Assembly: GCA_030539395.1 (NCBI GenBank) | Contig: JAUNSC010000036.1 | Span: 1 to 33,537, forward strand | DNA from: Eubacteriales bacterium | Lineage (GTDB): Bacteria; Bacillota; Clostridia; Lachnospirales; Lachnospiraceae | DNA length: 33,537 nt | Reading direction: 5' to 3' | In this document: one piece after another, positions 10,585 through 33,537 of the stretch | Position numbering within the stretch: the first letter of the stretch is position 1 | Layout of the letters: every line of letters begins with the position of its first letter | The notes under the pieces: model-generated | Databases searched by the model: none | Seen by the model: the letters and a program-made list of their open reading frames with translations, nothing else | What the model was told of the DNA's origin: nothing | Program-made: the position numbers and the translations under genes

Positions 10585-10598
10585 GCTACATTGTGACA

Positions 10599-10722: not shown

Positions 10723-10729
10723 CATTTTC

Positions 10730-10758
10730 TTGACTTAGCTCTCTTCTGATGATATATT
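10730..10758 (+). promoter_or_regulatory. promoter of the divergent aldolase gene
   Basis: TTGACT, 17 bases, then TATATT: close to the sigma-A consensus. The start codon is 45 bases downstream, preceded by AAGGAG at 10791-10796. Motif copies flank it on both sides. Confidence 0.75.
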
Positions 10759-10772
10759 CATTTTATAATTCA

Positions 10773-10787
10773 TAAAATAAAATTTCA
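10773..10787. promoter_or_regulatory. candidate RpiR operator, copy 4
   Basis: TAAAATAAAATTTCA matches 14 of 15 bases of TGAAATAAAATTTCA and is the best copy. It lies just downstream of the expected transcription start of the plus-strand aldolase, ending 3 bases before the ribosome site. Confidence 0.5.
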
Positions 10788-10803
10788 CGGAAGGAGAATT
10801 TTT

Positions 10804-11649: not shown

Positions 11650-11665
11650 ATATAACAGCCTTCTA

Positions 11666-11702
11666 AAAAACTGCAGGTGTTACATACACACCCGCAGTTT
11701 TT
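11666..11702. terminator. bidirectional terminator between the two sugar loci
   Basis: Stem AAAAACTGC-a-GGTGT paired with ACACC-c-GCAGTTTTT (one A/C mismatch) around a 7-base loop. T-runs occur on both strands, so it can end both the plus-strand aldolase and the minus-strand GH30 operon, whose stop is 14 bases away. Confidence 0.8.
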
Positions 11703-11715
11703 GTCTGCCTGTCGC

Positions 11716-13074: not shown

Positions 13075-13085
13075 ATCCTGCTCCT

Positions 13086-13805
13086 TCAGAAATTCTTTTT
13101 ATATTCGCTCGGCGTAATTCCCATAATTTTCTTGAAAACACGCGTAAAATACTTTTCGTCCTGAAATCCCACTTTATAAGCGATCTCGTATGTCTTAAAA
13201 TACCGCTGCTTCAGATAGGCGCACGCATGCTCAATGCGAATCTGGTTCAGATAATCCACAAAACCTGTTCCCAGACACTGAGAAAAAATAGTAGATAAAT
13301 AACCCGGGGAAATTCCAACTACATCAGCAACACGCTGCAAGGTCAATTCCTCATTATAATATTCTTCCATATATTCTTTTGCAAGCTCCACAAGATTAGA
13401 ATGTGTACTGTCAACTTCCGTTTTCTGCGTCGTTCCCGATATTTCGTCAGCAATCTCAAGGATCTGCTTTAAAATATCCGAAGAGCGGCTGGGCTTAAGC
13501 AGATAGCAGCGGGCACCATAACGCAAAGCCTGCTGCGCATATCTGAATTCTTCATAGCCGCTTAAAATAATTGTTGCAGGAAAGATCCCTGCATTCTTAG
13601 CCTCCTTCATGACGGCAATGCCATCCCTGACCGGCATCTGAATGTCGAGCAGCATTATTTCCGGGCGGTTTTTGAATATGATATCAATCGCTTCCTGTCC
13701 GTTTCGGGCAAGATAGATCCGGTCAAACCTGTCTGTATGGAGCCGGATATATTTTTCCATCCCTTTGCGAATCATATCCTCATCTTCTGCTATTAATAAT
13801 TTCAT
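13086..13805 (-). CDS. AraC-type response regulator (YesN-like)
   Basis: A 239-residue protein from the ATG at 13805. Residues 1-120 are a receiver domain: acidic pocket AEDED at 6-10, phospho-acceptor Asp54 in LLDIQMP, and the KPS lysine near 105. Residues about 140-239 are an AraC/XylS double helix-turn-helix (LQRVADVVGISPGYLSTIF, then AYKVGFQDEKYFTRVFKK). The start was chosen by the site GGAG 7 bases upstream; the TAA stop of the kinase gene lies inside that spacing, so translation is coupled. It is expected to activate the upstream importer genes when the sensor detects sugar. Confidence 0.9.
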   Translation of the reverse strand: MKLLIAEDEDMIRKGMEKYIRLHTDRFDRIYLARNGQEAIDIIFKNRPEIMLLDIQMPVRDGIAVMKEAKNAGIFPATIILSGYEEFRYAQQALRYGARCYLLKPSRSSDILKQILEIADEISGTTQKTEVDSTHSNLVELAKEYMEEYYNEELTLQRVADVVGISPGYLSTIFSQCLGTGFVDYLNQIRIEHACAYLKQRYFKTYEIAYKVGFQDEKYFTRVFKKIMGITPSEYKKNF

Positions 13806-13809
13806 CTTC

Positions 13810-15609: not shown

Positions 15610-15695
15610 AATGCACCTCCATTATCAGCTGACTTTGTTTCAAAGCTTCTTTATTTATATTTCCGCCTGCATAAAATGGTCCTCTGGAATCTATT

Positions 15696-16541
15696 TTACC
15701 CCTTTACGGCTCCCATTGCCACACCTTTTGTGATATGTTTGTTCAATACAATGTAAATAAGAACCGCCGGCGCAGCCGTCAAAGCCATAACTGCAAATTG
15801 TACCGCATAATTGGAAGAATACTGACCGGTGAACTCCAGCACGGAGAACGGAAGCGTCTTCCACTTCGGGGAACTCAGATAAGTACTTGCCATCATAAAT
15901 TCATTCCAGTTGTTTAAGAACGTCATGATAGATACAGTTGCAATGGATGCCTTCAGCATTGGTGTAATGATCTGGAAAATAATGCGGTAAATACCGCAGC
16001 CATCCATAACGGCAGCCTCTTCAAGCTCCACCGGAATCGCGCTCATAAAACTCGTCATCAGGAACAGTCCCTGAGGAAGGGAAAATGCCACGTACGGAAT
16101 CAGCAGTGCCCAGATCGTATCTGTCATATGCAGTGTGCTGTAAATTTTATAATTGGGAAGCAGCGTTGCATGAATCGGAATCATCATTCCCATCAGCAAC
16201 AGTGTTTTCACGAGGCCGTTCAGCTTCCAGTGCATTCTCAGGCAGGCAAATGCCGCCATGATCGAGATCAGAACCACCAGCACCACAGCCAGGCCATTGA
16301 TCAAAAGGCTGTTTTTCAGATAGTGGATAAAATTCCCATCAACAAATGCTTTTACATAATTGCCCCACTGAATCTTTTCCGGAATAATCAGCAATCCGTT
16401 TGTAAACATCTCATTGCTGCTTGCCAGAGAGAAATCCAGCAGCCAGATCAGCGGGAAAATCTGGATGATTGCCACGAAGATCAGTGCGATCCAGAGGATT
16501 ATTTTACCAATGGGAGTCTTTTTCTTTCCTGTTATTTCCAT
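15696..16541 (-). CDS. carbohydrate ABC transporter permease, MalG type (second importer)
   Basis: A 281-residue six-helix permease with EAA loop EEAAVMDGCGIYRIIFQIIT at about 176-195 and the GAVKG end usual for MalG-type subunits. Its ATG overlaps the stop of the preceding permease by one base (TAATG), so translation is coupled. An 86-base gap follows before the histidine kinase gene. The importer lacks its own ATPase. Confidence 0.9.
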   Translation of the reverse strand: MEITGKKKTPIGKIILWIALIFVAIIQIFPLIWLLDFSLASSNEMFTNGLLIIPEKIQWGNYVKAFVDGNFIHYLKNSLLINGLAVVLVVLISIMAAFACLRMHWKLNGLVKTLLLMGMMIPIHATLLPNYKIYSTLHMTDTIWALLIPYVAFSLPQGLFLMTSFMSAIPVELEEAAVMDGCGIYRIIFQIITPMLKASIATVSIMTFLNNWNEFMMASTYLSSPKWKTLPFSVLEFTGQYSSNYAVQFAVMALTAAPAVLIYIVLNKHITKGVAMGAVKG

Positions 16542-17428
16542 TACTGCACCCTCCTTTTAGGCTCTCGCTCTTCGAAAATCTTGTTCAGAACTACCGTTGC
16601 CAGCAGACAGATAATGATAAATACAACGCTGATTGCGTTACCATAGCCATATTTGAAGGCTTTAAACGCCTGCTGGTATAAATAGGTTGCCGTGAACTGG
16701 GTTGCATTGCCCGGACCTCCATTGGTCAGCAGGTATACTGTTTCCATCTGTTTTAACGCAGAGATGACCGCCATCGTTACGTTAACCTGAATGACCGGCT
16801 TCATCAGCGGAAGTGTCACGCGCAGGAAAGTCTGCCTCGGGTTGGCCCCATCGATGGCCGCCGCCTCGTAAAGAGTCGGATCAATATTTTTGATACCCGA
16901 ATAGTAAATCAGCATACCCCAGCCGAATCCGTGCCAGATCAGTACAACAAGTACGGACCATATGGCCATCTGAGGACTGAACCAGTTAATATTGCCCTTA
17001 TGCCCGAACAGCTTCAGAATATTGTTGAGAAGTCCAAAATTGGGGTTATAGATAAATTTCCACAGGTAGGCAATAACCGCCACAGAAATAACATTCGGTA
17101 TAAAATAAACACACCGGAAAAAGGATTCTCCTCTCCCTCCCTTTTTATCAAGAATTGCCGCCACAATGATTGCCAGCGGATGCTGGATACAGATAAATCC
17201 GATTGCCAGAAACAGTGAGTTGCGAAGTGCCGTAAAAAATGCCTCATCATGTGCCAGCGTCTTATAGTTCTCAAGGCCAATCATATCCCAGGAGCCCATG
17301 CCCGAGTAATTGGTCAGAGAATAATAAACGCTCAGACAGATCGGTGCCAGAATCGCAAACACAAAGAGAAGAAGTCCCGGCAGCACAAGGCTCGTTATTA
17401 CCAGCTTATTACTATACATTTTTTTCAT
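16541..17428 (-). CDS. sugar ABC transporter permease, MalF type (second importer)
   Basis: A 295-residue permease. It has a first helix at about 10-32 (LVLPGLLLFVFAILAPICLS), five more helices, and the EAA loop EAAAIDGANPRQTFLRVTLP at about 189-208. The N-terminal Lys-rich start MKKMYSNK follows AAAGGAATGCTATT, an acceptable ribosome site. It pairs with the MalG-type subunit that overlaps its stop. Confidence 0.9.
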   Translation of the reverse strand: MKKMYSNKLVITSLVLPGLLLFVFAILAPICLSVYYSLTNYSGMGSWDMIGLENYKTLAHDEAFFTALRNSLFLAIGFICIQHPLAIIVAAILDKKGGRGESFFRCVYFIPNVISVAVIAYLWKFIYNPNFGLLNNILKLFGHKGNINWFSPQMAIWSVLVVLIWHGFGWGMLIYYSGIKNIDPTLYEAAAIDGANPRQTFLRVTLPLMKPVIQVNVTMAVISALKQMETVYLLTNGGPGNATQFTATYLYQQAFKAFKYGYGNAISVVFIIICLLATVVLNKIFEEREPKRRVQ

Positions 17429-17463
17429 AATAGCATTCCTTTCTCAATTATGCCATAATATAA

Positions 17464-17491
17464 GAGCGGCCCCCGCGAAGGGCAGCCGCTC
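17464..17491 (-). other. intercistronic hairpin after the second binding-protein gene
   Basis: GAGCGGC and GCCGCTC arms with an inner CCC/GGG pairing. On the minus strand it is followed by TTATATTATGG, not a proper T-run. It lies 24 bases after the binding-protein stop, in the same place as the 9174-9197 hairpin of the other importer operon. Likely role: mRNA protection or partial termination. Confidence 0.55.
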
Positions 17492-17514
17492 CATCATATT
17501 ATTCTCTGCGTTGC

Positions 17515-18798
17515 CTATTTGCAGGCTGTTCCAATATTACCAAGGAATGTATCTACATCAATTGTTCCATTAGATACGCTCTGGATTTCGCTCTCGATGC
17601 TTGTCTTAAACGCTGACGGTCCGCAGTCGTTTACCGGAGTTCCTGAAACGCTTGTTGCATTTGTAACAATTTCAACAATCTGTTTCATCAGCTCTGTCTC
17701 CTCGCCAGTCATATAATCCGTCTGATCCTGTGCTGACATACCTACACCATTTTCCCAACCGTATTTCGAAAGTTTATCCGGCTGGTACATGAAGTTCAGG
17801 AACTTGATTGCTTCATCTTTTACTTCTGAGCTTGCAGATACTGCATATCCGCCGCCGTTCCATGCTTCAATATCAGTTGCAGAAGCTGCGCCGTCTGTTA
17901 CAGTCGGCATTGTAAATACTCGAATATTTGTACGGATTTCCTCCGGGATATCCTCGTTAAGTGCCATAGATGTTTCCCAGCTTCCCATATAGAACATGGC
18001 TGCCTGTCCGTTTGTAAACAGATTCATCGCTGTTCCATAATCCTGTGAATCGTAACCCACCTGGAACAATCCTGCATCTGCAGCATCTTTCAGCAACTGT
18101 GTAGCCTGTGCAAATGCTTCATCTGAGAAATCACCGTTTGCAACTGCATTTGCAACAGTTTCTTTGTAGTCACCTGTAATTTTGTAGAGAAGGTCTGAAA
18201 GATAAACTGCCATCGGCCATCCGTCTCCGCCGTCCATTGCCACCGGTGTCATACCTGCTTCTGTGATTGTTTTTCCAAGTTCCAGCAGCTCATCGTATGT
18301 AGATGGTACGCTCCAGCCGTTATCTTCAAACATCTTCTGATTGTAGTAGAATACTGCCACGTCCGTATTTCTCGGGAGTCCATAAAGTTTGCCGTCTTTC
18401 TTGAAACCTTCCAGAGAACCTTCGATAAATTTGTAGTCTGCGTAATCATCCTCGTTCAATTCAGCAAGCACACCTGCTTCCAGAACCTCATCAAGGAAAG
18501 ATGGCTGTCCCCAGATGTTGACTACATCCGGCATTCCTTCCATTGCATACGCTTTAAATTTTGTCTTGTAGGCTTCCTCATCAAGGGCTTCTACTTCAAT
18601 CGTAACATTTGGATTTTCTTCCATGTACTCGTCAATAATCATCTGTTCCACAAGGCCCTGACCATTTTTCCGATCCGGCAGATTGGAAAAGACCTTCAAT
18701 GTTACCGGTTCCTCTGCACTTGCATAAATTGTTGCGCCTGACATAAGACCTGTTACCATTGCTGCTGTCAACGCCACTGACCACCATTTTGCTTTCAT
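17515..18798 (-). CDS. extracellular sugar-binding protein of the second ABC importer
   Basis: A 427-residue family 1 binding protein from the ATG at 18798, 7 bases after CAGGAGG. The signal peptide is MKAKWW plus a hydrophobic core with likely cleavage after ASA at about residue 27. As in the first importer there is no lipobox cysteine. The mature protein starts EEPVTLKVFSNLP. A 45-codon in-frame extension upstream crosses the promoter region and is rejected. It is the first gene of an operon with two permeases, a two-component system and GH30, so the ligand is probably an oligosaccharide or glycoside later cut by that enzyme. Confidence 0.88.
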   Translation of the reverse strand: MKAKWWSVALTAAMVTGLMSGATIYASAEEPVTLKVFSNLPDRKNGQGLVEQMIIDEYMEENPNVTIEVEALDEEAYKTKFKAYAMEGMPDVVNIWGQPSFLDEVLEAGVLAELNEDDYADYKFIEGSLEGFKKDGKLYGLPRNTDVAVFYYNQKMFEDNGWSVPSTYDELLELGKTITEAGMTPVAMDGGDGWPMAVYLSDLLYKITGDYKETVANAVANGDFSDEAFAQATQLLKDAADAGLFQVGYDSQDYGTAMNLFTNGQAAMFYMGSWETSMALNEDIPEEIRTNIRVFTMPTVTDGAASATDIEAWNGGGYAVSASSEVKDEAIKFLNFMYQPDKLSKYGWENGVGMSAQDQTDYMTGEETELMKQIVEIVTNATSVSGTPVNDCGPSAFKTSIESEIQSVSNGTIDVDTFLGNIGTACK

Positions 18799-18869
18799 TC
18801 TGATACCCTCCTGTTTCCTTTTCCTGACCACCGTTTTCTTTATTCGGTGCGTTTCTTTTTGATGAAGAA

Positions 18870-18898
18870 AGTATATCACCTTCCCCGAGTCCGTTACA
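18870..18898 (-). promoter_or_regulatory. activator-dependent promoter candidate of the second importer
   Basis: A -10 box TATACT on the minus strand, 72 bases before the start codon, with only TGTAAC 17 bases upstream, a poor -35 box. That fits a promoter that needs the AraC-type regulator encoded in the operon. Confidence 0.45.
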
Positions 18899-18912
18899 GG
18901 TAGCAATCTTTC

Positions 18913-18930
18913 AAAATAGTGGACTATTTT
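18913..18930. promoter_or_regulatory. perfect palindrome upstream of the second importer promoter
   Basis: AAAATAGTGGACTATTTT is an exact 8-2-8 inverted repeat ending 14 bases upstream of the putative -35 box, where an activator would bind. A second inverted repeat, TCAGA-TATT-TCTGA, lies at 18938-18951. The binder is unknown; the operon's own response regulator is the first candidate. Confidence 0.45.
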
Positions 18931-19008
18931 CATTTTTTCAGATATTTCTGATAAATATTCTTATCCGGTTACTTCAAAATTATCATCATTTTCACAGTTC
19001 TTTTCTCA

Positions 19009-22483: not shown

Positions 22484-22933
22484 TTATATTTCTACATGAT
22501 TTTCCTGTGACTCCAAAAATTTCTGAACATAACTTATGACTCTCTCCTGCATATCTTCGTCTTTATTCATCTGGCGTATTGTACATTCCCATACAATGAT
22601 GTACCTTACTCCTTTTTCATCCAGTTCTTTTTGAACTGCACAATCTCTCTTTTTATTTGCTTCGAACTTTTTCTGCCAGAACTCAATTCTGGATTTTGGC
22701 ATATACGCATATTTACATCCCCCATGTCTGTGCCAGAAACAGCCATGGATAAACACCGCCGTATTATACTTTCTTAAATATATATCCGGATGCCCCGGTA
22801 CTGTTTTTGAGTTCAGACTGTATCTGTATCCTTTCGCAAACAGCAGCTTGCGAAAATAAATTTCCGGTTTCGTATCTTTTGACCGAATAGCCGCCATATT
22901 TTTACTTCGCTGTTCCGGTGTCACTATATCCAT
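22484..22933 (-). CDS. vsr: very short patch repair (Vsr) endonuclease
   Basis: A 149-residue enzyme that nicks beside T:G mismatches arising when 5-methylcytosine deaminates. The N-terminal signature TPEQRSKNMAAIRSKDTKPE at 5-24 and the catalytic core GHPDIYL (Asp50) with FIHGCFWHRHGGC (His63, His68) match E. coli Vsr residues D51, H64 and H69 almost one to one. Zinc ligands are in the GCFWH...GGCKY segment. The gap to the endonuclease gene is one base, so it is part of the same operon. Its presence fits a cytosine-5 methylase. Confidence 0.93.
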   Translation of the reverse strand: MDIVTPEQRSKNMAAIRSKDTKPEIYFRKLLFAKGYRYSLNSKTVPGHPDIYLRKYNTAVFIHGCFWHRHGGCKYAYMPKSRIEFWQKKFEANKKRDCAVQKELDEKGVRYIIVWECTIRQMNKDEDMQERVISYVQKFLESQENHVEI

Positions 22934-22934
22934 T

Positions 22935-24113
22935 TTACTTTCCCTCTATTGTCTTTACATACTGCACAAATCTTGACAATGTCCAGATTCTGTCCCGCCT
23001 GTCGGAAGGATATGTTTTAATATAAGGCTGCGGAACCACAAGAATTACATTTTCTGCCTGCATTTCATCCATCTGGGCACCGGATATGCCCTGCTGAAGC
23101 GTACATAAATATTTCGGTCTGTCTTTTAATCTGTCGGCCTCATTAAGCACCTGTCTCCACCGGTCTTTACATGTAGTCTTTGCCGCCAGTGAGAGCAGTT
23201 TTTCTACTGAAAATCCTCCGTTATGATAGGCCTCTTTGGATGGAAAGATAAAATCCGGCTTTTTGTTTCCTTCTGTTACAGCCTGAGCTGAATACTCCAG
23301 TTCATTCCCGTCAAATATGGCAGCAAGATGGTGTTCCAGACTTTTTCCGGCTCTGCTCTTTCTTCTGTTTAACACAATATTCGCCAATTTTACGAACTCA
23401 TCAACAGAAGTAAATCCCTTTGTAATTATGTCGCTGTATCGATCATACTCCAATGCACGGAAGAGTGCATATTCCATGTTTGTCCATTCAATAATCTTTC
23501 TGTCAGGATTCGTTTGTATGTATTCCATATGACCGTATGCTCTGTTCTGGATATCTCTTGCCGCTGACGACATAATCTCCGAAGCCGGAAAATCAACCTC
23601 CAGACTGCTGATAAATTCCTGAATGGCAATTTGTTCATGCGTTTCCGGCTGAACTTTCCCCGTATCAATTAAACAGTTTGTCTCTGCCGGACTGAGTCCA
23701 AATGCGCTTAAAAATGTTTCTATATCATCATCAGAATTCAATACATATCCCAGATAATTTTCTTCCTCTGCTTTCACAAAAACAAACAGGGCTCCCGTAT
23801 ACTCTGCCATTAAAAACGGAAACTCTCTTCCAAAATTTGTAATGCGATATTCATTTCTTGTTCCTTTTCCATAGTAAATGAAACGGGTATCTGTCACAAA
23901 ATCATCCTGCCACTTTACTTTTACCCATTTGTCCTTATTTTCTCCTTTTTGCCCGGGTTCCGAAAACAAGATTTCCACAGATGATTTTGGAATATATATG
24001 CCTGCCTGATGTCCTCCCGTTGCACCGGTATCATTTGCTGAAAGAAATTTGCAAAATCCCATCTGACCATTTAACACTGCCTTAATTGCCTGATTAGAAT
24101 ATTCCGTCAACAT
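22935..24113 (-). CDS. EcoRII-like type II restriction endonuclease
   Basis: A 392-residue enzyme from the ATG at 24113 (GGAAGGTG, 6 bases); length close to EcoRII. The N-terminal effector-DNA-binding domain has the EcoRII-N style motif SANDTGATGGHQAGIYIPK at about 25-43. The C-terminal PD-(D/E)xK nuclease has Glu260 (SLEHH), Asp287 (KPDFIFPS) and Lys312 in AAKTTCKDRWRQ, the EcoRII-C hallmark. By homology it should cut near CCWGG-type sites and may need two sites, as EcoRII does, but specificity is inferred. Order methylase, endonuclease, vsr with 1- to 4-base gaps makes one cassette. Confidence 0.88.
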   Translation of the reverse strand: MLTEYSNQAIKAVLNGQMGFCKFLSANDTGATGGHQAGIYIPKSSVEILFSEPGQKGENKDKWVKVKWQDDFVTDTRFIYYGKGTRNEYRITNFGREFPFLMAEYTGALFVFVKAEEENYLGYVLNSDDDIETFLSAFGLSPAETNCLIDTGKVQPETHEQIAIQEFISSLEVDFPASEIMSSAARDIQNRAYGHMEYIQTNPDRKIIEWTNMEYALFRALEYDRYSDIITKGFTSVDEFVKLANIVLNRRKSRAGKSLEHHLAAIFDGNELEYSAQAVTEGNKKPDFIFPSKEAYHNGGFSVEKLLSLAAKTTCKDRWRQVLNEADRLKDRPKYLCTLQQGISGAQMDEMQAENVILVVPQPYIKTYPSDRRDRIWTLSRFVQYVKTIEGK

Positions 24114-24117
24114 CAAA

Positions 24118-25260
24118 TCACCTTCCCCGCATTTTATCCGCTATTCTCGCATCCATATATTCAAGTTTTTCAACCATTAATTTCGCAACATTTTCCATCA
24201 ATGGAACAACAACAGAATTGCCAAACTGCTTATATGCCTGTGTATCTGATACCGGAATTTTAAAACTGTCCGGAAATCCCTGTAATCTTGCACACTCTCT
24301 TGGAGTAAGTCTTCTTGGATTCTTTCCATCCTGTGCGATCAGTATTTCTGAGCCATCTTTATAATACCTTGCACTTATTGTTCTTGACGCCCCATCCAAC
24401 GGAGCGATTCCATATCCGAAGCCATTACCGGCTGCTCTATGCTTTGCAGCATAATTTTGCAGATATGTCCACAGTTTATCGGACAAAGTATATTTTGCTT
24501 CAACTTCCTTATCCAGAATATCTCTCATAACCGGCTTTGGATTTTCAGGTGTCAGCTTAAACTCAAATTTAACATCTTTCCCATATCTTTCTCTGTCAAA
24601 TCCAACTATGATAATTCTTTCTCTGTGCTGCGGTACATAATTCTGACCATCCAGAATATCGTGAAATACCTCATAATCCAGCTCGTCCAGAGATTCTTTA
24701 ATTACCTGGAAAGTCCGTCCCTTATCATGGCTGCAAAGATTTTTGACATTTTCCAGCAGAAACGCTTTCGGACGTTTTTCTTTTAAAATTCTGCAAACAT
24801 CAAAAAACAGCGTTCCCTGGGTTTTATCGGCAAATCCGGTTTCCCTGCCCAGACTGTTCTTTTTGGAAACTCCGGCAATCGAAAATGGCTGACACGGGAA
24901 CCCCGCAACCAGGATATCGTGATCCGGTATATCCTTCTCATTCACCTGTGTAATATCTCCATCCGGCTGCTCACCAAAATTTGCAAAATACGTCTGCTGA
25001 CTATATTTATTCCATTCATTGGAATATACGCAATGTCCGCCAGCCCTGTCAAAAGCGATTCTCATACCCCCAATTCCCGCAAACAGATCGATAAAAGAAA
25101 ATTGTTTATTTGATACATTTTTCTGCTTTCTTCTCATATCTGTAATATAATAAGCTGCTGCTTCTCTCAGGCAATCCTGTATGCTCTGTCCGCTCTGCAA
25201 AGAATACGTATTCAGCTCTTCATATAATTCATCTTCTATTCTTACATGCACCTGTTTCAT
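24118..25260 (-). CDS. DNA (cytosine-5) methyltransferase with N-terminal ribbon-helix-helix-like domain
   Basis: A 380-residue methylase. Motif I is FIDLFAGIGGMR, motif IV GFPCQPFS with catalytic Cys123, motif VI LLENVKNL, motif VIII QHRERIIIVGF, motif X FGNSVVVPL; the stretch before motif IX (about 240-290) holds the target-recognition region. Residues 1-45 read MKQVHVRIEDELYEELNTYS, an RHH/CopG-like strand-helix-helix, which could bind the operon's own promoter as HTH-bearing methylases such as M.SsoII do. The ATG at 25260 is 9 bases from AGGAG; an ATG at 25266 is only 3 bases away. It is the first gene of the cassette. Confidence 0.92.
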   Translation of the reverse strand: MKQVHVRIEDELYEELNTYSLQSGQSIQDCLREAAAYYITDMRRKQKNVSNKQFSFIDLFAGIGGMRIAFDRAGGHCVYSNEWNKYSQQTYFANFGEQPDGDITQVNEKDIPDHDILVAGFPCQPFSIAGVSKKNSLGRETGFADKTQGTLFFDVCRILKEKRPKAFLLENVKNLCSHDKGRTFQVIKESLDELDYEVFHDILDGQNYVPQHRERIIIVGFDRERYGKDVKFEFKLTPENPKPVMRDILDKEVEAKYTLSDKLWTYLQNYAAKHRAAGNGFGYGIAPLDGASRTISARYYKDGSEILIAQDGKNPRRLTPRECARLQGFPDSFKIPVSDTQAYKQFGNSVVVPLMENVAKLMVEKLEYMDARIADKMRGR

Positions 25261-25303
25261 TCTCATTCGCTCCTGGGAATAATCTTATACCTGATTTTTC
25301 CCT

Positions 25304-25425: not shown

Positions 25426-28400
25426 CTACTCCAGCAACGGGCAATTTGCAAACGCATTTTCTGCTATTTCCGGCTTCTCGCCTTTGTACGTTACCGTTTC
25501 CAGCGAATCACAGCTATAGAATGCAAACTCTCCAATGGAAGTTACGCCAGACGGTATCTCAATGCTGCGCAGCGTATCACACCAGGAGAACGCATGTCTT
25601 CCAATCGTCTCCACCGTGTCCGGAAGCATCACCTGTTCCAAATTATCATTGGACTCAAATGCAAATGCACCTATTTCCACTGTGCCATCCAACACGGTAT
25701 ACCCGGTACCCTGTTTTGCAATCGGATAACGTACAAGGCAGGTCTGGTCTGCCGTATACAGCACTCCATCCACACTGATGTAATGTTTATTCTTTTCATT
25801 CACCGTAATGTTGGAAAGTTTTATCATATCAGCAAATTGCTTTCCCAAACTGCTGACTTTCTCCGGAATATAAAGCGATTCCACATTATTGACATTAAAA
25901 AATGCACAAGCGCCAATCTTTGTTACCTCTCCCCCTATCTTGATTTCCGTAATACTGTCACGGTACTCGTCCCAGGGCGGGGGATTTTCAGAATAATCCT
26001 CCATGTCTCCTGAGCCGGATATGGTCAGCTTCCCTGTTTCTGACAATGACCAGGTCAGTTTTTCTCCGCAGGTCCCCTCCGCTAAAATCTTTTCCTCTGC
26101 CAGCAACGGGCAATTTGCAAACGCATTTTCTGCTATTTCCGGCTTCTCGCCTTTGTACGTTACCGTTTCCAACAAATCACAGTCATTAAATGCCCACTCT
26201 CCAATAGAAGTTACACCGGACGGTATCTCAATGCTGCGCAGCGCATCACACCATGAAAACGCCTTTCTTCCAATCGTCTCCACCGTGTCCGGAAGCATCA
26301 CCTGTTCCAGATTTCTGCACTCCGTAAATGCACTTGACCCTATTTCTACTGTGCCGTCCAACACGGTGTACTCATTACCCTCTTTCGCCATTGGATACCT
26401 CTCAAGGCTTGTCCGGTCTGCCGTATACAGCACTCCATCCATGCTGATGTAATCCTTATTCTTTTCATCCACCGTAATGTTGGAAAGTTTCCTCATACCA
26501 GCAAACTGAAGTCCCAAACGCTTGACCTGCTCCGGGACATAAAGCGATTCTACCTGATTGACATTAAAAAATGCAAAGTCACCGATTCCGGTTACCTCCT
26601 TCCCTATCTCGATTTCCGTAATACTGTCACAATACCCGTACCAGGGCGGACGGTTATCATCATTCGTTGAATAATCCTCCATGTCACCGGAGCCGGATAT
26701 GGTCAGCTTCCCTGTTTCTGACAATGACCAGGTCAGGTTTTCTCCGCAGGTCCCCTCCGCTAAAATCTCTTCCTCTGCCAGCAACGGACAATTTTCAAAC
26801 GCATTTTCTGCTATTTCCGGCTCCTCGCCCTTATACGTTACCGTTTCCAATGCAGAGCAATTGGAAAATGCATTTCCCCCAATGGCCGTCACACTGGCCG
26901 GTATCTCTATACTGCTCAGACTGCTGCAATAAGAAAACGTATAGGGTTCAATAGTAGTTACACCATCCGGTATCCGGATGCTGCTCAAACCAGGGCAATC
27001 ATAAAATGCCAACCATCCAATAGCTCCCACCGTATCCGGAAGCTCTACCTGTTCCAGATACCGGCACTTTGCAAAGGCACTCGTCTCTACCGTCAATGTC
27101 CCGTCCGGCACAGTATAGACTGTATCTGATTTTGCCGGAGGATATCGTACAAGACTGGTATGATCTGATGTATACAGTACTCCATCCTCTGCTTTATAAT
27201 ATTCATTTTTCGCATCTACTTCAATTTCAGCAAGATCAATTATATTAAGGCATTCACTGCCCAGACTGCTGATCTTCTCCGGAATATAAAGCGTTTTTAC
27301 ATTCATAACATACCAAAATGCATAATCACCAATTCCCGTTACCTTTTCTCCTATCTCAATTTCCGTAATGCTGTCACGGTACCTGTACCAGGGAGCACAG
27401 TTTTCATCATTTCCTGAATAATCCTCCATGTCGCCGGAGCCGGATATGACCAGTTCACCTGTTTCCGACAATGACCATGTCAGATTCTCTCCGCAGTCGC
27501 CCTTTGCCACAGGAGCCGGGCCAGACAGACGGCCGGCTGCGAACACACCCCCCGCTGTTAAAACGACAATGCCGGCAGCAATCGCCGCTTTTTTTAACCA
27601 TTTCGGTTTGCGTTTCCGTTTTAGCGCCGCCTCCAGTTCCTCCATGGTCTGTATCCGCTTCTCCGGCCTGAGCGCCAGGCCCTTTTTCAAAGCTTTCAGG
27701 ATCTCCTCCGGAATCTTTTTTCTCTGTGCTTCCGTCAGCTGCAATTCTTCCTGCTGCATACGGCTCAGAGAAGATGGCAGCACCTTTCCTGTGATACAGT
27801 AATAAATTGTGGCGCACATGGCGTATACGTCCGTCCACGGTCCAATGTGCCCTGTCTCTGAATACTGTTCCAGGGGGCTGAATCCATTAGACACAACCCG
27901 CTGAGTCGGCGGCAGTTCTCCATCATTGTTTTTTCCTCCGGAATCTCTTTTTTTCAGGTCAAGTTCCTTGGCGGCCCCCAAATCCAGCAGGCGGATGTTT
28001 CCGTCCTTCTGAATCATGATGTTGTCAGGCTTGATATCCCGGTGGATCATATTCTGCTTATGTATTGTGTCCATGCCTTTGATAATGGGCATCAGCAGAC
28101 TGATACACTTCTTTGCTTCCATTGGACCTTCCCGCTTCAGCCTGTCCTTCAGTGTTTCCCCTTCTACAAAATCCATGACAATGTATGCCGTTTCATTTTC
28201 CATAAAGACATCCCTGACGCGGACAATCTCCGGAATCCGATCAATTTTGGCCATTTTCTGCGCTTCTCTGATAAAACTTCTGCATCCTGCATCCTGATCT
28301 GCAACGGAACTGTTCCAGGAAACATCATTCACATGCGCCGCATCCCGGTTCACCGCTCCATCCGGAAAATACTCCTTGACCGCCACTTTAATATTCAGCA

Positions 28401-28602
28401 TCAGGTCAAAGCCCACATACGTAATCCCAAAACCGCCCCGTCCCATCACTCTTCCGACCAGGTATCTTCCCTTCAGAATCGTATACTCGCGCAGGGCACA
28501 CTCCGGCTGCGGCACACTGCCGTGCCGGTACCCGCACACCGGACAGCAGGGCCGCTCATCCTCCAGCTCAGACATGCAATTCATACACCGATGTATCTTC
28601 AT
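25426..28602 (-). CDS. membrane Ser/Thr protein kinase with zinc ribbon and extracellular LRR_5 repeats
   Basis: From the ATG at 28602 (GAGGGTG, 6 bases), 1058 residues. Order: a zinc-ribbon-like segment at 1-30 (CMNC, CPVCG); a Hanks kinase at about 45-330 with glycine loop GRGGFG, Lys76 (VAVK), HRDIKPDN with Asp189, and DLG at 207-209 in place of DFG; one membrane helix at about 337-358; then three long repeats, each starting CGENLTWSLSETG or a close variant and followed by BspA-type LRR_5 units (FANCPLLEE, LPDTVETIGRKAF). The repeats should face outside. The protein ends at NCPLLE, inside the motif that joins repeats, so it looks cut at a repeat boundary. It is the last gene of a phosphorylation operon. 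Confidence 0.9.
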   Translation of the reverse strand: MKIHRCMNCMSELEDERPCCPVCGYRHGSVPQPECALREYTILKGRYLVGRVMGRGGFGITYVGFDLMLNIKVAVKEYFPDGAVNRDAAHVNDVSWNSSVADQDAGCRSFIREAQKMAKIDRIPEIVRVRDVFMENETAYIVMDFVEGETLKDRLKREGPMEAKKCISLLMPIIKGMDTIHKQNMIHRDIKPDNIMIQKDGNIRLLDLGAAKELDLKKRDSGGKNNDGELPPTQRVVSNGFSPLEQYSETGHIGPWTDVYAMCATIYYCITGKVLPSSLSRMQQEELQLTEAQRKKIPEEILKALKKGLALRPEKRIQTMEELEAALKRKRKPKWLKKAAIAAGIVVLTAGGVFAAGRLSGPAPVAKGDCGENLTWSLSETGELVISGSGDMEDYSGNDENCAPWYRYRDSITEIEIGEKVTGIGDYAFWYVMNVKTLYIPEKISSLGSECLNIIDLAEIEVDAKNEYYKAEDGVLYTSDHTSLVRYPPAKSDTVYTVPDGTLTVETSAFAKCRYLEQVELPDTVGAIGWLAFYDCPGLSSIRIPDGVTTIEPYTFSYCSSLSSIEIPASVTAIGGNAFSNCSALETVTYKGEEPEIAENAFENCPLLAEEEILAEGTCGENLTWSLSETGKLTISGSGDMEDYSTNDDNRPPWYGYCDSITEIEIGKEVTGIGDFAFFNVNQVESLYVPEQVKRLGLQFAGMRKLSNITVDEKNKDYISMDGVLYTADRTSLERYPMAKEGNEYTVLDGTVEIGSSAFTECRNLEQVMLPDTVETIGRKAFSWCDALRSIEIPSGVTSIGEWAFNDCDLLETVTYKGEKPEIAENAFANCPLLAEEKILAEGTCGEKLTWSLSETGKLTISGSGDMEDYSENPPPWDEYRDSITEIKIGGEVTKIGACAFFNVNNVESLYIPEKVSSLGKQFADMIKLSNITVNEKNKHYISVDGVLYTADQTCLVRYPIAKQGTGYTVLDGTVEIGAFAFESNDNLEQVMLPDTVETIGRHAFSWCDTLRSIEIPSGVTSIGEFAFYSCDSLETVTYKGEKPEIAENAFANCPLLE
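25434..27500. repeat. three tandem DNA repeats of about 670 bp inside the kinase gene
   Basis: Blocks such as CGTTACCGTTTCCA and AACGCATTTTCTGC recur near 25450-25503, 26120-26174 and 26800-26850. Spacing is about 670 then 680 bases, with long near-identical stretches between the first two units. They encode the extracellular LRR modules. The newest-looking pair, toward the C-terminus, is nearly identical, pointing to recent duplication. Recombination between units could change receptor length. Confidence 0.8.
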
Positions 28603-28639
28603 TCTCAACACCCTCTCTTTTTCCCGAACCGTACACAGC

Positions 28640-30016
28640 TCATTTTATAATGAATGATACCTTATCCGAACCCAATGATACTCTGTCTCCCGTATTCAGA
28701 GAATACATCGCCATGGCATTGATCCTGGTTCCATTTACCATGGTGCCATAAGATGAATTCAGATCCTGTAAAATCCATTTTCCGTTCTCATATTGAATCC
28801 TGCAGTGTCTGCGGCTGACACCTCCGGCCTCGGGAATCACCAGGTCACAATCCCGGTTTCTTCCAATACTGGTTGACGAAGCACCTCCGCATTCAAATAC
28901 TTTTCCTCCAAGGGGCCCGCTGACAAACTGCAGCTGAAGTGATGCTTTCCACGCCTGTGATCTTCCCACCATAACTGCCTGTTTCAGGCATTTCCGCAAA
29001 ATGTAAATGCAACTGGTCCACAGAAACACCATGACAAATATTTCCTTAATCAGGCCTATTCGTGAAGCCGTCAGGCTTACTTTATTAATCATTTGTTCCG
29101 ACTGGATGACAGCATTAAACTTCCTCTCATTCATGTGGGCCAGGACAAACAGGTACTCTGATACTCCGCTGTTCCATACAAAATGGCCGGCCACTGAAGC
29201 CAGAAAGGTTACTGCAAAATCTTTGTTGAAGATAGAATCTTTTGTAAACCTGCCACACGGAGAATTCAGTGCAACAGCAGCGGCATAAGGTGCACAGAAC
29301 AGCGCATGTCCACCCACTGCCAGGAAGGCACGAAGCAGTTCCGTCTCTGTTCCATACTCCAGGCCATACGTAATGGATTCAAAACCTCCGAATCCTGCGC
29401 CCACTGCCGCCCCAATCACCAGTCCGGTCAGACCATACATCCTCTTATTTCTGAAAAAGAGGAAAAGAATAATGACCGCAGCTGCAAGTTTGGCCGGCTC
29501 TTCCCGAAATGCCGCCAGGGATGCAAGGGAATATTCTATCCCCTTATATGTAACGCTGCCTGGAATTCCTATAAAAAAAATGCCCGTCACAAAAAAGGAG
29601 AGTATCGCTCCCAATACAAAATACAAAGCAAGCTGATACCACGTAATATTCCTTGGTATGTTAATTTCCCAAAAGAAAATCATCAGACCGACAGGAACAA
29701 ACAAGGAAATTAAAACAGCCATCACATGGTCAGCAGAAACTACTCTGATGAATAACACCTCATTGTCCAGATATTCCAGTACAAGCATTAACAGAACAAC
29801 AACAGCCCCAATCCCTAAAAACCTGAGATACAGCCACGGTTTTCTCCATTTTTGGAGCATGTTCTGCTCCGTTGTTTTATCCATGGAAGTACCTGCCAGC
29901 AGCGCATATTCTAAATCCTCTTTCGTGTGATGTTTCAGACTCTCTGAAAATAAATCCTTCCATTTTATTTGATTCGCATCCTCATCCGCCCTCTTAAAAA
30001 AGGTTGTATTTCCCAT
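28640..30016 (-). CDS. PrsW-like intramembrane protease fused to C-terminal FHA domain
   Basis: From the ATG at 30016, 458 residues. A cytoplasmic N-terminal part of about 60 residues is followed by seven or eight membrane helices (about 66-345). These carry the PrsW pattern: EEPAK (Glu172, Glu173, Lys176), GFGGFES (Glu213), GGHALF (His237) and AGHFVWN (His278), the likely metal-site residues. A C-terminal FHA domain (about 375-458) has GR-x-x-x-C-D, SRRHC and NSSYGTMVNG for phosphothreonine binding. The start is 9 bases after AGGAGG. PrsW cuts anti-sigma factors elsewhere; here the FHA fusion suggests recruitment by phosphorylation. Gap to the previous gene is 13 bases. Confidence 0.8.
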   Translation of the reverse strand: MGNTTFFKRADEDANQIKWKDLFSESLKHHTKEDLEYALLAGTSMDKTTEQNMLQKWRKPWLYLRFLGIGAVVVLLMLVLEYLDNEVLFIRVVSADHVMAVLISLFVPVGLMIFFWEINIPRNITWYQLALYFVLGAILSFFVTGIFFIGIPGSVTYKGIEYSLASLAAFREEPAKLAAAVIILFLFFRNKRMYGLTGLVIGAAVGAGFGGFESITYGLEYGTETELLRAFLAVGGHALFCAPYAAAVALNSPCGRFTKDSIFNKDFAVTFLASVAGHFVWNSGVSEYLFVLAHMNERKFNAVIQSEQMINKVSLTASRIGLIKEIFVMVFLWTSCIYILRKCLKQAVMVGRSQAWKASLQLQFVSGPLGGKVFECGGASSTSIGRNRDCDLVIPEAGGVSRRHCRIQYENGKWILQDLNSSYGTMVNGTRINAMAMYSLNTGDRVSLGSDKVSFIIK

Positions 30017-30029
30017 TTCTTCATTCCTC

Positions 30030-31349
30030 CTATCCTTTCCTGCTGACAAGGAACATATGATTACGGTCTGCCAGGTAAAAGATGTCTCCTTCCTTCAGTT
30101 CATACGGTTCATTTGCTGCCAGCTTTACTCCATCTCCCATATATGTACCGCAGGTAGAACCCACATCCATCAAAAGCAGCTTCCCTTTTTCCGGTATCAC
30201 CTCACAGTGCCGTCCGCTGACTCCCCTTGTATCATCCGGATAACTGATCTGGCAATCCACACTTCTTCCGATCCAGCAAATTCCCCGGATGTCATACGCT
30301 CTTCCTTTCATAACTCCCTCTATGCCGATAAGACAATACTGCGGAATATCGCCGACCGGTTTCGTCCTGTCTTCTCCGCCTTCTGCCGGTTTTGTTTTAT
30401 CAGGGTCCTCTATCTGCCGGACCGATGGCTGAGACTGTTTCTTACTTTGCATTTCCAAAGCAGTATCGTTTTTCTTTAATTTGGCTTTCCGGCGTTTTTC
30501 CTGCTTTTGCTCAGCATAAGCTTTTAATGCCTGTATACGTTTTTTTCTCATTTTCATGCTTAAATACAGGGCTGCAAAAGCCACAATAAAGTAAATCACC
30601 ATCATTATCCAGGTGGAAGCATCTAACGTTGACTTATCTCTTCCTGTGTCTCCGCCCGATTCCTCCGGGATTTGTGCCGTATTTCCCAGCGCCCACTCCG
30701 GATTCAGCTCTGTCTGTGACAAATCAATCATTTCAAGCGAATAATTATACAAATCAGCCGAAAGAATTCCCATTACATGAGAGTTTTCCTTATGCACTAC
30801 CGGACTGCCGCATATCCAAAAATCCTCCAGTTGTGTCCCGCTGTCATACCTGCCCAGATCATTTTTCTGCCATGACTCTATGTCCGCTTCATACTCATAC
30901 ACTCCTTTTTGATAATAAACAAGGATCTGTGCCATATCCATATCCGGTGCGGACGACCTGTCCGCTCCGACAGAAGGATAGTCCCCTGTCTCAGCCGCAC
31001 TTAAAAAGGACAGACCCGACTGATTTCCTGCAACTGTGACTTTCTCCTGAAAGTCTCCCTGCAGGAGATATAAATCATAACCGCCCTCTTCCAGCACCCC
31101 TGCCATATCACACGAAACAAGCCAGAAACATCCTGTCTCCAAATCCTTAATCTTTGTTGCAGAAAGAGTTACTGATGTATCCTCATCTTTTATGCAATAA
31201 AGATAGAATATGCTGTGTTTCTCTTCTGATTCCGCCTGTACCGTCTGACCGCAAAAGCTTATGAGAAACAGCAAAAGCAATACTTTTATTTCCCTGCATC
31301 CTGCAGTTTTCCCTCCCATGTCTTTTTCTCTTTTCTCTTTCCTTCTCAT
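30030..31349 (-). CDS. secreted-domain membrane protein with cytoplasmic FHA domain
   Basis: From the ATG at 31349 (GGGAGG, 5 bases), 439 residues. The signal peptide has a charged start and hydrophobic core at about 22-34, with cleavage likely after VQA (residue 39). An outside domain (about 40-245) follows, then a membrane helix at about 246-268 followed by KMRKKR, a charged linker, and a cytoplasmic FHA domain at about 352-436 (WIGRSVDCQI, VSGRHCEV, GSTCGTYMGDG). The outside part has a trypsin-like feel (FWLVSCD, DMDMAQILV, GSPVVHKENSHVMGIL) but no full catalytic triad, so it may be a dead protease fold used for sensing. That fold call is tentative. Confidence 0.8.
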   Translation of the reverse strand: MRRKEKREKDMGGKTAGCREIKVLLLLFLISFCGQTVQAESEEKHSIFYLYCIKDEDTSVTLSATKIKDLETGCFWLVSCDMAGVLEEGGYDLYLLQGDFQEKVTVAGNQSGLSFLSAAETGDYPSVGADRSSAPDMDMAQILVYYQKGVYEYEADIESWQKNDLGRYDSGTQLEDFWICGSPVVHKENSHVMGILSADLYNYSLEMIDLSQTELNPEWALGNTAQIPEESGGDTGRDKSTLDASTWIMMVIYFIVAFAALYLSMKMRKKRIQALKAYAEQKQEKRRKAKLKKNDTALEMQSKKQSQPSVRQIEDPDKTKPAEGGEDRTKPVGDIPQYCLIGIEGVMKGRAYDIRGICWIGRSVDCQISYPDDTRGVSGRHCEVIPEKGKLLLMDVGSTCGTYMGDGVKLAANEPYELKEGDIFYLADRNHMFLVSRKG

Positions 31350-31365
31350 ACGTTCCTCCCTGGCT

Positions 31366-32874
31366 TCATTCGTTATATTCCAAAATAACTGCAGTATAGT
31401 TATCCTGATGCGGCCTGTTTGATGTCCCGATCGTATCATGAATGGACTGTGCAGCGCTTTGTGCCGGCTGCTTCAGAAGCTGTTCCAGTTTCCGTTCATC
31501 AATGGTACCAAAAACACCGTCTGATGTCAGCAGCACCTTATCTCCTTTTTTCAGGAGGATGCCGCCTGTATTCCGATCCACATATTTTATCATCCCCTGC
31601 CCCACATAACTGGTCAGGTTCCTTCTCTGCGGATCCAGATGCACGCTATGCAGGTCGCCCTGGTTATTTATAACCTTCAATGCCAGTTCTTCCTGATAAT
31701 TGTGCTCTCTGTTCAACTGAATCAGTCCCCCGCTGCGCCACAGCCAGATCCTGCTGTCACCAATCGTCAGAAAATACAGCATTCCCTGCCAGATCACGCC
31801 TATTACCATCGTCGAACCGCTTCTTTCCGTATTCTGCAAAATACGGTTCACTTCTTTATTTACATTAAGCGCCATTTCCAATATGGCATCCGTGGGATCC
31901 ATCGTTTCAATGCTCTGATAAAAAGTATCTACACATACTTTTACAACGGTATTGCTGACTATTGCCCCATTTTGCAGTCCGCCCATTCCATCTGCAACAA
32001 TTGCCAGCATATCTCCCGGCTTTGCATTTTTCACATCCGTAAGCTCATCTGCATAAAAGCTGTCCTGCTGATCGTTTCTTGCGCCAATCCCATGTATTTT
32101 TCCGATTCTGCTCTTTTCACTTTGCACAATTTTTTCTTCTTCTACCACTCTTATGCGGGATTTTTCCGAATTGTTCCTCTTGTTTTTTCTTCGGCCTTTC
32201 ATAAACAAAGCGATGGCTGCCGCCACGAACAGTCCGGCAGCGAACCCGATTCCCTGCTTCAAAAGCTGTCCTGTGATTACCGTCAGCACCGAAGTTTCCG
32301 TCTCGGATTCGCTTTCTGTCTCCGCTCCGGTTTCCGTTTCTGCTTCTGTTTCCGTCTCCATTCCGGTTTCCGATGTTCCCAGTCCTGTCTTCCCTTCCCC
32401 AGTTTCCGTTTCCGTCATTCTTTCGTCTGCTTCCGTTTGCTGTGTTTCCTGCTCTGTCTCAGATTCCGGAACTTTGATTTCATCCTGCAATGTCTCGGAA
32501 ACTGTCACGGAAAATCCGGCGTTTCGTCTCTCTTCGGCATTTCCCCCCTGTTCTCCTTTCACATCAATTACCAGATAATATGTCTGTCCCGCTTCCATTT
32601 CATAATACATGCTGAAATTAAAATCCATCTCCCCGCAGTTATCATTTTCCTGCAGCAAATGCTGCTCACTGTCAAACAAATATCCGTGCAGATCCAGCGC
32701 TTCGGTACTTCCCTGTGACCACAGGGTATACGTACCACTTTGTTCCGGGGTAAAACTATAACAGTAATTTTCACGAACCTCCATACTGCTGTTTAAATTC
32801 ATCTTTTCACATTCTGTGGTAAATATGGCAGCCACATCCCCGGAAACTGCCGCATCCGTTCTCTCATCTCCCAT
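31366..32874 (-). CDS. membrane PP2C-type Ser/Thr phosphatase with PPC-like domain
   Basis: A 502-residue protein. Residues about 25-127 resemble a PPC/pre-peptidase beta domain (YSFTPEQSGTYTLWSQG, LEAGQTYY-like pattern). A Glu/Thr-rich linker is at about 132-195, one membrane helix at 206-226 followed by KGRRKNKR, and a PP2C phosphatase at about 255-500 with metal-site motifs GARNDQQDSF (Asp271), ADGMGG (Asp295), GDSR, TSDGVFG and QDNYTAVIL. It would reverse kinase action on cytoplasmic targets. The strong site GGGGAGG supports the start, yet no N-terminal signal peptide exists, so topology of the first 200 residues is uncertain. Confidence 0.88.
   Translation of the reverse strand: MGDERTDAAVSGDVAAIFTTECEKMNLNSSMEVRENYCYSFTPEQSGTYTLWSQGSTEALDLHGYLFDSEQHLLQENDNCGEMDFNFSMYYEMEAGQTYYLVIDVKGEQGGNAEERRNAGFSVTVSETLQDEIKVPESETEQETQQTEADERMTETETGEGKTGLGTSETGMETETEAETETGAETESESETETSVLTVITGQLLKQGIGFAAGLFVAAAIALFMKGRRKNKRNNSEKSRIRVVEEEKIVQSEKSRIGKIHGIGARNDQQDSFYADELTDVKNAKPGDMLAIVADGMGGLQNGAIVSNTVVKVCVDTFYQSIETMDPTDAILEMALNVNKEVNRILQNTERSGSTMVIGVIWQGMLYFLTIGDSRIWLWRSGGLIQLNREHNYQEELALKVINNQGDLHSVHLDPQRRNLTSYVGQGMIKYVDRNTGGILLKKGDKVLLTSDGVFGTIDERKLEQLLKQPAQSAAQSIHDTIGTSNRPHQDNYTAVILEYNE
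32280..32450. repeat. low-complexity Glu/Thr-coding repeat in the phosphatase gene
   Basis: Short degenerate repeats such as TTCCGTTTC and TTCTGTTTCCG encode alternating Thr-Glu units of the linker before the membrane helix. Slippage could vary linker length. Confidence 0.6.
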
Positions 32875-32918
32875 ACGCTTCCTCCCCTGACCCTTTCTGC
32901 AAATTCATCCTGAGTTTA

Positions 32919-33537
32919 TCACTCTGCCGCTTCCATTATGGAAATACGGTACTCATAACTGCCGACTCTGATTTTCCCCTGATTTTCCACATATCCTGAA
33001 ATGCCCCGTTCCACCGGTACCCCATTTAAAAAGGTTCCGTTTCTAGATCCTGCATCCCATATCTCTATGCGGTCTTTTTGGCAGCGCATTTTACAATGCA
33101 CTCCTGATAACTTAGAATCATCCGGATTTAGAATAAGCTGTGCGTTTATTGTTCTGCCGACAGTCATCACCGCATCTTCTTTCATACGGAGTACCACACT
33201 TCTCTTCTCATGGCCAATTACCGTAAACGTTACATCATAAAACTTTCCCTGCGGTGCTGCTGCCATCGTCTCATTCGGTTTTGTTTCCCCCGCTTCGGCA
33301 ACTTTCTCCGATACTCCATCCTCTGCGCTGTCCCTGATATCTGTCTGATCCCGATCCGACTCCGCCTGACGCTTCTCTTCCCTTTGCTTTTTGCGCTTCT
33401 TTTCAGCCAAAACTGCAGCAATCACAAGAAACACTGCGGCAATTCCTCCAAAAACAAACCACTGATTACCAATTGTCCCCGGCTCTGGACCCGGTTCAGT
33501 CTCAGACTCTGCCGGATTACTTTCCTGCTCTGCCGGA
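32919..33537 (-). CDS. membrane FHA-domain protein, N-terminus outside the window
   Basis: The frame is open to the right edge, so the true start lies beyond it; about 205 residues are visible. The visible order is an acidic Pro/Glu-rich stretch (PAESETEPGPEPG), a membrane helix (WFVFGGIAAVFLVIAAVLA) with a following KKRKK, a charged linker, and an FHA domain in the last 95 residues (VGRTINAQLIL, LSGVHCKM, DAGSRNGTFLNG). The layout parallels the 30030-31349 protein: outside part, helix, cytoplasmic FHA. It lies 44 bases before the phosphatase gene and belongs to the same operon. Confidence 0.82.
   Translation of the reverse strand, partial: PAEQESNPAESETEPGPEPGTIGNQWFVFGGIAAVFLVIAAVLAEKKRKKQREEKRQAESDRDQTDIRDSAEDGVSEKVAEAGETKPNETMAAAPQGKFYDVTFTVIGHEKRSVVLRMKEDAVMTVGRTINAQLILNPDDSKLSGVHCKMRCQKDRIEIWDAGSRNGTFLNGVPVERGISGYVENQGKIRVGSYEYRISIMEAAE

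Follow-up and report, generated by a model that had tools for sequence, protein, structure and literature searches.

A Lachnospiraceae gene cluster that may form a receptor-kinase switch with FHA-tagged membrane proteins, among them a PrsW-type protease

What do a receptor-like Ser/Thr kinase, a PP2C phosphatase, a PrsW-type protease and further FHA proteins do together in one operon of a Lachnospiraceae bacterium? The operon lies at the end of contig JAUNSC010000036.1 (here C47), all 33,537 bases of which form the window that we analyzed; the contig is one of 77 in a genome of 3.37 Mb that is 94% complete. As the window spans the entire contig, its right end is also an end of the assembly. 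The best explanation of the operon, which we hold with modest confidence, is a receptor-kinase switch with a set of FHA-tagged outputs. All five open reading frames (ORFs) are on the minus strand, tightly packed with gaps of 44, 16, 13, and 28 bases (Table 1); the gaps assume the likely starts that we chose, codon 31 in the frame of the HtrA-like FHA protein and codon 12 in that of the PrsW-FHA protein. The Pfam domains bear out the first reading of the operon as a kinase, a PP2C phosphatase, two membrane FHA proteins, and a PrsW-FHA fusion. Transmembrane (TM) segments were assigned by eye in the window proteins and with a hydropathy window in relatives. The five-gene operon was confirmed as real, and it is more than a chance arrangement, since its gene set was found again in 12 further clusters and since PrsW-FHA co-occurs with an adaptor protein described below.

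Table 1. Features of the cluster in the window (C47) and on contig C26 (LRR, leucine-rich repeat).
Feature	Position	Strand	Evidence or remark
Receptor kinase: N-terminal zinc-ribbon-like cysteine pairs, Ser/Thr kinase, TM, C-terminal BspA-type LRR ectodomain	25426..28611	-	Pkinase + LRR_5 (Pfam)
Ser/Thr kinase domain of the receptor kinase	27634..28458	-	PF00069, 129.1 bits
Multi-pass PrsW-type intramembrane protease with C-terminal FHA	28640..30016 (ORF to 30049)	-	PF13367 + PF00498 above cut-off
FHA domain of the PrsW-FHA protein	28670..28873	-	PF00498, 82.2 bits
Degenerate HtrA/trypsin-like ectodomain, TM, cytoplasmic FHA	30030..31349 (ORF to 31439)	-	FHA at 30072-30275; alignment; structure model
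Membrane-linked PP2C: N-terminal ~200 residues without recognised fold, one TM, cytoplasmic PP2C	31366..32874	-	PP2C_2 above cut-off
C-terminal part of a TM-FHA protein, truncated by the contig end	32919..33537 (Pfam frame 32919-33536)	-	FHA 32994-33164 above cut-off
C26 genes in transcription direction: zinc-ribbon-FHA, kinase-FHA, soluble PP2C, vWA	10,269-base contig	vWA on -	vWA gene truncated by the first bases of C26

The operon of the earlier note on this DNA is only half of a larger unit. This cluster has eight modules and is broken by the contig end, with its 3' portion on C47 and the other half very probably on contig C26. In the whole genome we found six FHA, six kinase, and three PP2C matches, of which four, two, and two, respectively, are on C47 or C26. 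Four of these modules lie in the window, along with a piece of another; once C26 is added, each of the eight is present once, with vWA-FHA in two pieces. The vWA piece of C26 aligns with the N-terminal part of the vWA-TM-FHA proteins of relatives (residues 61-325 of 519 in genome G817), and the FHA fragment of C47 aligns with their C-terminal part (419-515 in G817); its top three matches among the cluster FHA proteins of relatives were all vWA-TM-FHA. Hence the N-terminus of the truncated window protein, unseen in the earlier note, is very probably the vWA domain on C26, judging by these alignments. Comparison of both contig ends yielded no exact overlap; a similar Glu/Pro/Ser repeat is present at both, and such repeats are a usual cause of assembly breaks. 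The adjacency of C26 and C47 is thus suggested by the repeat-like ends, the complementary gene halves, and the gene content.

To see how often the set recurs, we searched for PrsW-FHA in four partly overlapping samples. Among 397 genomes of the family, 256 had some match, mostly to FHA only; 14 of the genomes listed matched in the PrsW part, comprising nine clusters of the window's kind (its own included) and five matches without adjoining FHA (G216, G124, G287, G234, and G098). Scoring covered no more than a few candidates in each genome, so that some clusters may have been missed. A search with the alignment at E 1e-30 gave matches in three of 392 genomes in the order sample (the window's own, G454, and G098), in 13 of 391 in the class sample (its own, two from other families with further PrsW-FHA clusters, and ten in which the match stopped short of the FHA part), and in one of 299, its own, in the phylum sample. 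The resulting table of 13 clusters consists of the window's own and 12 others, including two contigs from Lachnospiraceae metagenome-assembled genomes (MAGs); it leaves aside loci with plain PrsW lacking FHA (L053-L056, L076-L079, and L082) and five unmapped class-level PrsW matches (G758, G785, G835, G985, and G1056).

The gene set and its recurrence were observed directly. Kinase and PP2C genes are present in all 13 clusters, zinc-ribbon FHA and other TM-FHA genes in 12 each, kinase-FHA in eight, and vWA-FHA in seven; several clusters are broken by contig ends (e.g., L009 and G1058). A block of kinase-FHA, PP2C, and vWA recurs in the window's own genome, G316, G373, and G817, and another of PP2C-TM, HtrA-like-FHA, and PrsW-FHA in its own genome, L009, and G130. 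Conservation in relatives therefore holds for gene content and for these blocks, but not for the full order, which varies. Between PrsW-FHA and the kinase, L009 has an ORF of 267 aa (L009:3716-4519) that is hydrophobic near its N-terminus and had no Pfam or NCBIfam match. Receptor kinases are multiplied in several of the relatives: G316 and G373 each have five in a row, G130 has four and one more on the opposite strand, and G250 and G147 have three. Of ten receptor kinases scanned, five had LRR_4 or LRR_5 ectodomains, two had no named ectodomain, and the remaining three carried SBP_bac_3, a beta-lactamase-like domain, and DUF5050 with YARHG, respectively. In G343, three successive short kinase-like frames (L049:13379-14925) look as if one receptor kinase gene had been broken up.

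The residues expected of working enzymes and phosphothreonine-binding domains are directly visible in most of these proteins. PrsW proteases are marked by EExxK, a second Glu, and two His motifs. In PrsW-FHA, E183 E184 K187, E224, H248, and H289 are invariant in all 11 aligned sequences, as are G396, R397, S412, H415, and T436 of the FHA domain; in a wider set of 14, all keep these FHA residues and 10 have the Asn of the last loop. The window PrsW scores 52.6 bits against PF13367 (cut-off 23.5), and is below the NCBIfam PrsW equivalog (32.3 of 225 bits). The phosphothreonine-contacting residues (G-R, S..H, T loop) are intact in the three FHA domains of the window and in most relatives: TM-FHA rows keep R in 18 of 19, S in 18 of 19, and T in 19 of 19. 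Kinase-FHA proteins keep the kinase residues in eight of eight and the FHA R in seven of eight, and the metal-site residues of PP2C-TM are complete in the rows covering them. The window receptor kinase has the catalytic K, HRD, N, and DxG all in sequence; in relatives, the HRD aspartate is present in 27 of 29 covering rows, and some tandem copies are broken or degenerate. Of the two findings named beforehand as speaking against the operon's interpretation, unconserved order and missing FHA residues, neither was clearly seen.

The zinc-ribbon FHA protein encoded on C26 belongs to a family that we call the adaptor. The copy in the window's genome had no NCBIfam match at E 0.01 and scored under the Pfam FHA cut-off. 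Searched against solved structures, the adaptor profile gave four GarA entries as the best matches, followed by FhaA and OdhI (E 2e-5 to 9e-4). At E 1e-20 it matched 57 of the 397 family genomes, some in the FHA half only, and all nine genomes with PrsW-FHA clusters fall within these 57 (hypergeometric 1.5e-8, uncorrected for kinship). In an adaptor tree built from 34 rows and 113 columns, with 11 strong inner branches out of 31 and rooted at the midpoint, the PrsW-associated rows did not form a single clade, as PrsW-less rows were interspersed, so that a single origin of the PrsW variant was rejected; of four rows from loci with type VII secretion system (T7SS) genes, three cluster and the remaining one has a very long branch.

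The adaptors have low-complexity linkers in which T-x-P-[VILM] occurs 33 times in 12 sequences, compared to 1.36 expected by shuffling (none of 10,000 shuffles as high), with at least one copy in 11 of the 12; S-x-P-[VILM] was not found in the same linkers. These counts are observations, and they were repeated on linkers from genomes without PrsW-FHA clusters, which had played no part in defining the motif. Loci were available for 21 of the 48 other adaptor genomes (L092-L112), of which three (L101, L108, and L112) were left out, as the GWLV landmark was absent and no linker could be delimited; the remaining 18 linkers had 16 copies vs 1.76 expected, and two of S-x-P-[VILM] vs 1.56. The motif count is zero in PrsW-FHA, kinase-FHA, and soluble PP2C proteins. 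FHA domains often favour a particular residue at pThr+3. In addition, one Thr just before the FHA domain is aligned in 29 of 30 adaptor sequences (MAFFT).

The trypsin-like remnant proposed for one of the membrane FHA proteins was substantiated: the profile of the HtrA-like region finds HtrA1, HtrA2, and DegS, relatives match HtrA/DegS, and the structure model of the window protein itself matches DegS and HTRA1. In that model, the best matches are FHA structures, with DegS at rank 44 and HTRA1 at rank 50 among the best 50 matches listed (target TM-score 0.56 and 0.62); block averages of the predicted local distance difference test (pLDDT) are 71-90 over residues 71-180 and 39-85 beyond. The catalytic His and GNSGGP motifs are retained in L041, L045, L047, and one of the two L043 copies, and both of the motif-retaining relatives scanned match Trypsin_2. 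The PPC-like domain proposed for the PP2C protein was not supported, as its N-terminal part had no significant Pfam or PDB sequence match; the model of this part, from a three-row alignment, has a pLDDT of about 26-38. We saw by eye no N-terminal hydrophobic signal in the PP2C ORF, and the outside location of this part is therefore uncertain.

Taken together, the cluster would work as follows. Receptor kinases, with the kinase inside and an LRR or other ectodomain outside, and the soluble kinase-FHA would phosphorylate threonines in the adaptor linker, namely the T-x-P-[VILM] sites and the conserved Thr directly before the FHA domain. The resulting phosphothreonines may serve as docking sites for the FHA domains that three kinds of membrane protein, PrsW-FHA, HtrA-like-FHA, and vWA-FHA, carry at their cytoplasmic ends, and a signal would thereby gather or release these proteins at the membrane; the soluble and the membrane PP2C would reset the switch. 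PrsW-FHA, with its active-site residues intact, would be the likeliest enzymatic output and may cut a membrane regulator. Phosphorylation, FHA docking on the adaptor, gating of the protease, a ligand, and a substrate are all predictions from sequence, and the envelope sensing and proteolytic output put forward by the earlier note are likewise what we infer. Its term "phosphorelay" should go, as nothing suggests transfer of phosphate from protein to protein.

A number of observations weigh against the receptor-kinase switch. PrsW-FHA clusters are rare (nine of 397 family genomes), and gene order is only partly conserved among the 13. No PrsW substrate was seen, and a gene for an extracytoplasmic function (ECF) sigma factor follows the cluster in G114 only and was not among the other neighbours scanned. 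The window HtrA-like domain is without the catalytic His and GNSGGP motifs in the alignment; by its sequence it is either a pseudo-protease or, at the least, no classical serine protease. In vWA-FHA, R is kept in three of six and S in three of six. The adaptor FHA domain may itself not bind phosphothreonine, since the YGT threonine is missing (0 of 13 rows) and the His is present in only 9 of 13. As for the motif, only 10 of the 18 held-out linkers contain it, related adaptor sequences do not count as independent, L097 and L099 being nearly identical, and the 33 copies stand in 31 distinct contexts, some of them being tandem duplicates. With Phe or Ile in place of Thr, the motif likewise occurs more often than in shuffles (5 and 6 vs 0.4), and the reversed motif occurs four times vs 1.4 expected. 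Finally, TM-FHA proteins hold T-x-P-[VILM] at 1.09 per 1000 aa vs 0.46 in unrelated ORFs, and therefore the motif is not confined to the adaptor.

The cluster could also be a detached or degenerate T7SS regulator, the normal job of which is the control of secretion. The T7SSc, T7SSe, and T7SSf variants have a membrane Ser/Thr kinase, PPM phosphatase, FHA proteins, and, in T7SSc, vWA, and the parts of the paper available to us propose phosphothreonine control (Garrett, Higginson and Palmer 2024, PMC11217815). Moreover, among the 48 adaptor genomes without PrsW-FHA clusters, EssC was found at E 1e-60 in 14 and on the contig of the adaptor, 4-13 kb off, in four (8.6 kb from the adaptor core in G012, 8.8 kb in G017, 12.5 kb in G109, and 4 kb in G332). 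In all four, two PP2C genes adjoin the adaptor, and three have zinc-ribbon receptor kinases, the fourth locus ending at the contig edge; in G012 and G017, WXG100 lies between this core and EssC, with confirmation for G012 of both WXG100 and an FHA-bearing FtsK-type ATPase. The remark of the earlier note that no secretion gene is visible thus stands for the window's genome but not for the core in general. In that genome, which at 94% completeness could hide an unassembled T7SS, there was no WXG100 match at E 0.001, and by the model for EssC type b the best EssC/TsxC score was 100.8 bits, at FtsK level, against a cut-off of 778.4; none of the six FHA matches is in a frame longer than 526 aa. WXG100 was present in only four of 11 PrsW-FHA genomes searched and EssC above cut-off in three, with two pieces below it in G095 (the MAGs of L009 and L010 were outside this search). 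G095 has its PrsW cluster and a T7SS locus on one contig, but the latter is flanked by kinase, PP2C, and FHA genes of its own. For threonine phosphorylation of type VI secretion, TagH/Fha (TIGR03354) gave at best 55 of 120.25 bits, other genes of that system being outside the search. We conclude that the window's set shares parts with T7SS variants without, as far as found, being one, and that a regulator gone astray is an improbable account of it.

Somewhat less improbable, but still unlikely, is an envelope or cell-wall stress kinase of the PrkC/PknB kind, with transcription as the output through PrsW cleavage of an anti-sigma factor. Site-1 cleavage of RsiW is the prototype reaction of PrsW (PMC3482391), one receptor kinase has the beta-lactamase-like ectodomain, and in G114 the vWA-FHA gene overlaps at its end with the ECF sigma gene (L042:1539-2333), which matches SigW with 97 bits. 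Genes for a TM protein and an ABC ATPase come after this sigma gene. However, it is the only sigma gene among seven clusters with scanned neighbours (10 genes), and a conserved sigma/anti-sigma partner was accordingly rejected; a separate kinase-PP2C pair is encoded on C8 of the window's genome; and the window kinase has LRR_5 in place of PASTA, without a PASTA match and with 145.6 bits to NF033483 against the PASTA-kinase cut-off of 450. An anti-phage or conflict system, i.e., kinase-based defence beside a restriction-modification locus, appears very improbable. Genes for Vsr, an EcoRII-type endonuclease, and a Dcm-like methylase do lie directly downstream of the operon on the same strand (22484-25266), and the window kinase matches the MAD6 and PD-T4-6 models, but these PADLOC matches are generic ones limited to the kinase domain, for which reason we rank this account low. 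The other four operon proteins had no PADLOC match, partner genes not being sought genome-wide, and no restriction-modification gene was among the 10 scanned neighbour genes of seven other clusters, most neighbours being unscanned.

Compared to known systems, the receptor-kinase switch combines familiar parts. Like the T7SS variants, to judge from what we could consult of PMC11217815, the cluster has kinase, phosphatase, FHA, and vWA components; unlike them, it has PrsW-FHA, HtrA-like-FHA, and vWA-TM-FHA instead of EssC/TsxC and WXG100, neither of which was found in its genome, and that portion of the paper names no zinc-ribbon FHA adaptor as a component. The conserved Thr before the adaptor FHA is reminiscent of the Thr N-terminal to FHA in GarA/OdhI (PMC12321487, as partly available), GarA being the best solved relative. 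Unlike these actinobacterial proteins, the adaptor, which is Clostridia-like, combines a zinc ribbon with T-x-P-[VILM] sites and is without the YGT loop and the ETTS motif (KTVSYY, QTIAV, TLPM, and similar are in its place). ArnA-ArnB of Sulfolobus comprises a zinc-finger FHA protein and a vWA protein under kinases, with phosphosites mapped on the vWA protein ArnB (PMC6509490, sections at hand). The cluster is comparable in having zinc-ribbon FHA, vWA, and kinases; its vWA is membrane-tethered with an FHA of its own, none being mentioned on ArnB in those sections, and its phosphosites are predicted on the adaptor. The TerY-P triad unites vWA, PP2C, and kinase, as does the cluster, in which vWA is followed by TM and FHA.

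As far as the excerpts seen go, PrsW-FHA fusions, noted as probable signalling peptidases by Zhang et al. (2012, PMC3482391) with no account there of the gene cluster or partners, and kinase-PP2C-FHA sets with T7SS are already in print. A literature search, largely without subscription papers, found no published description of the T7SS-free protease-bearing assembly, the zinc-ribbon adaptor family, or the motif array. What appears new is the T-x-P-[VILM] array of the adaptor linker and the conserved pre-FHA Thr as candidate phosphosites.

Some features lie outside the cluster. The scanned genes in 791-18933 of the window encode an ABC-2 transporter, sugar-binding proteins, an aldolase, an ADP-dependent sugar kinase, GH30, and a histidine kinase, and this looks like an ordinary sugar-use region. 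On C26, a Resolvase-type recombinase (L002:3866-4501) is near the adaptor gene, and EF-Tu, EF-G, and S7-like genes were seen by eye; the cluster could be part of an insertion. A further TM-FHA protein is encoded near the end of contig C5 (L003:8279-9763).

In other genomes this core lies close to T7SS genes, which suggests that its outputs can be exchanged; the core may therefore be a portable phospho-switch. We tentatively propose, with some doubt, a module in which a zinc-ribbon FHA adaptor with its T-x-P-[VILM] array is written by receptor kinases whose number can grow. FHA-tagged membrane machines that can stand in for one another would read it, in this cluster the intramembrane protease, the HtrA-like protein, and the vWA protein, and elsewhere a T7SS ATPase. 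If true, this would be a bacterial receptor-kinase-like pathway with a multi-site adaptor, in which many receptors act through one adaptor on several FHA-tagged effectors. The shared core would help explain the kinase, phosphatase, and FHA genes in T7SS variants, and the linker sites would amount to a testable phosphosite code. It would also suggest a way in which threonine phosphorylation could switch an intramembrane protease, and a use for BspA-type LRR ectodomains.

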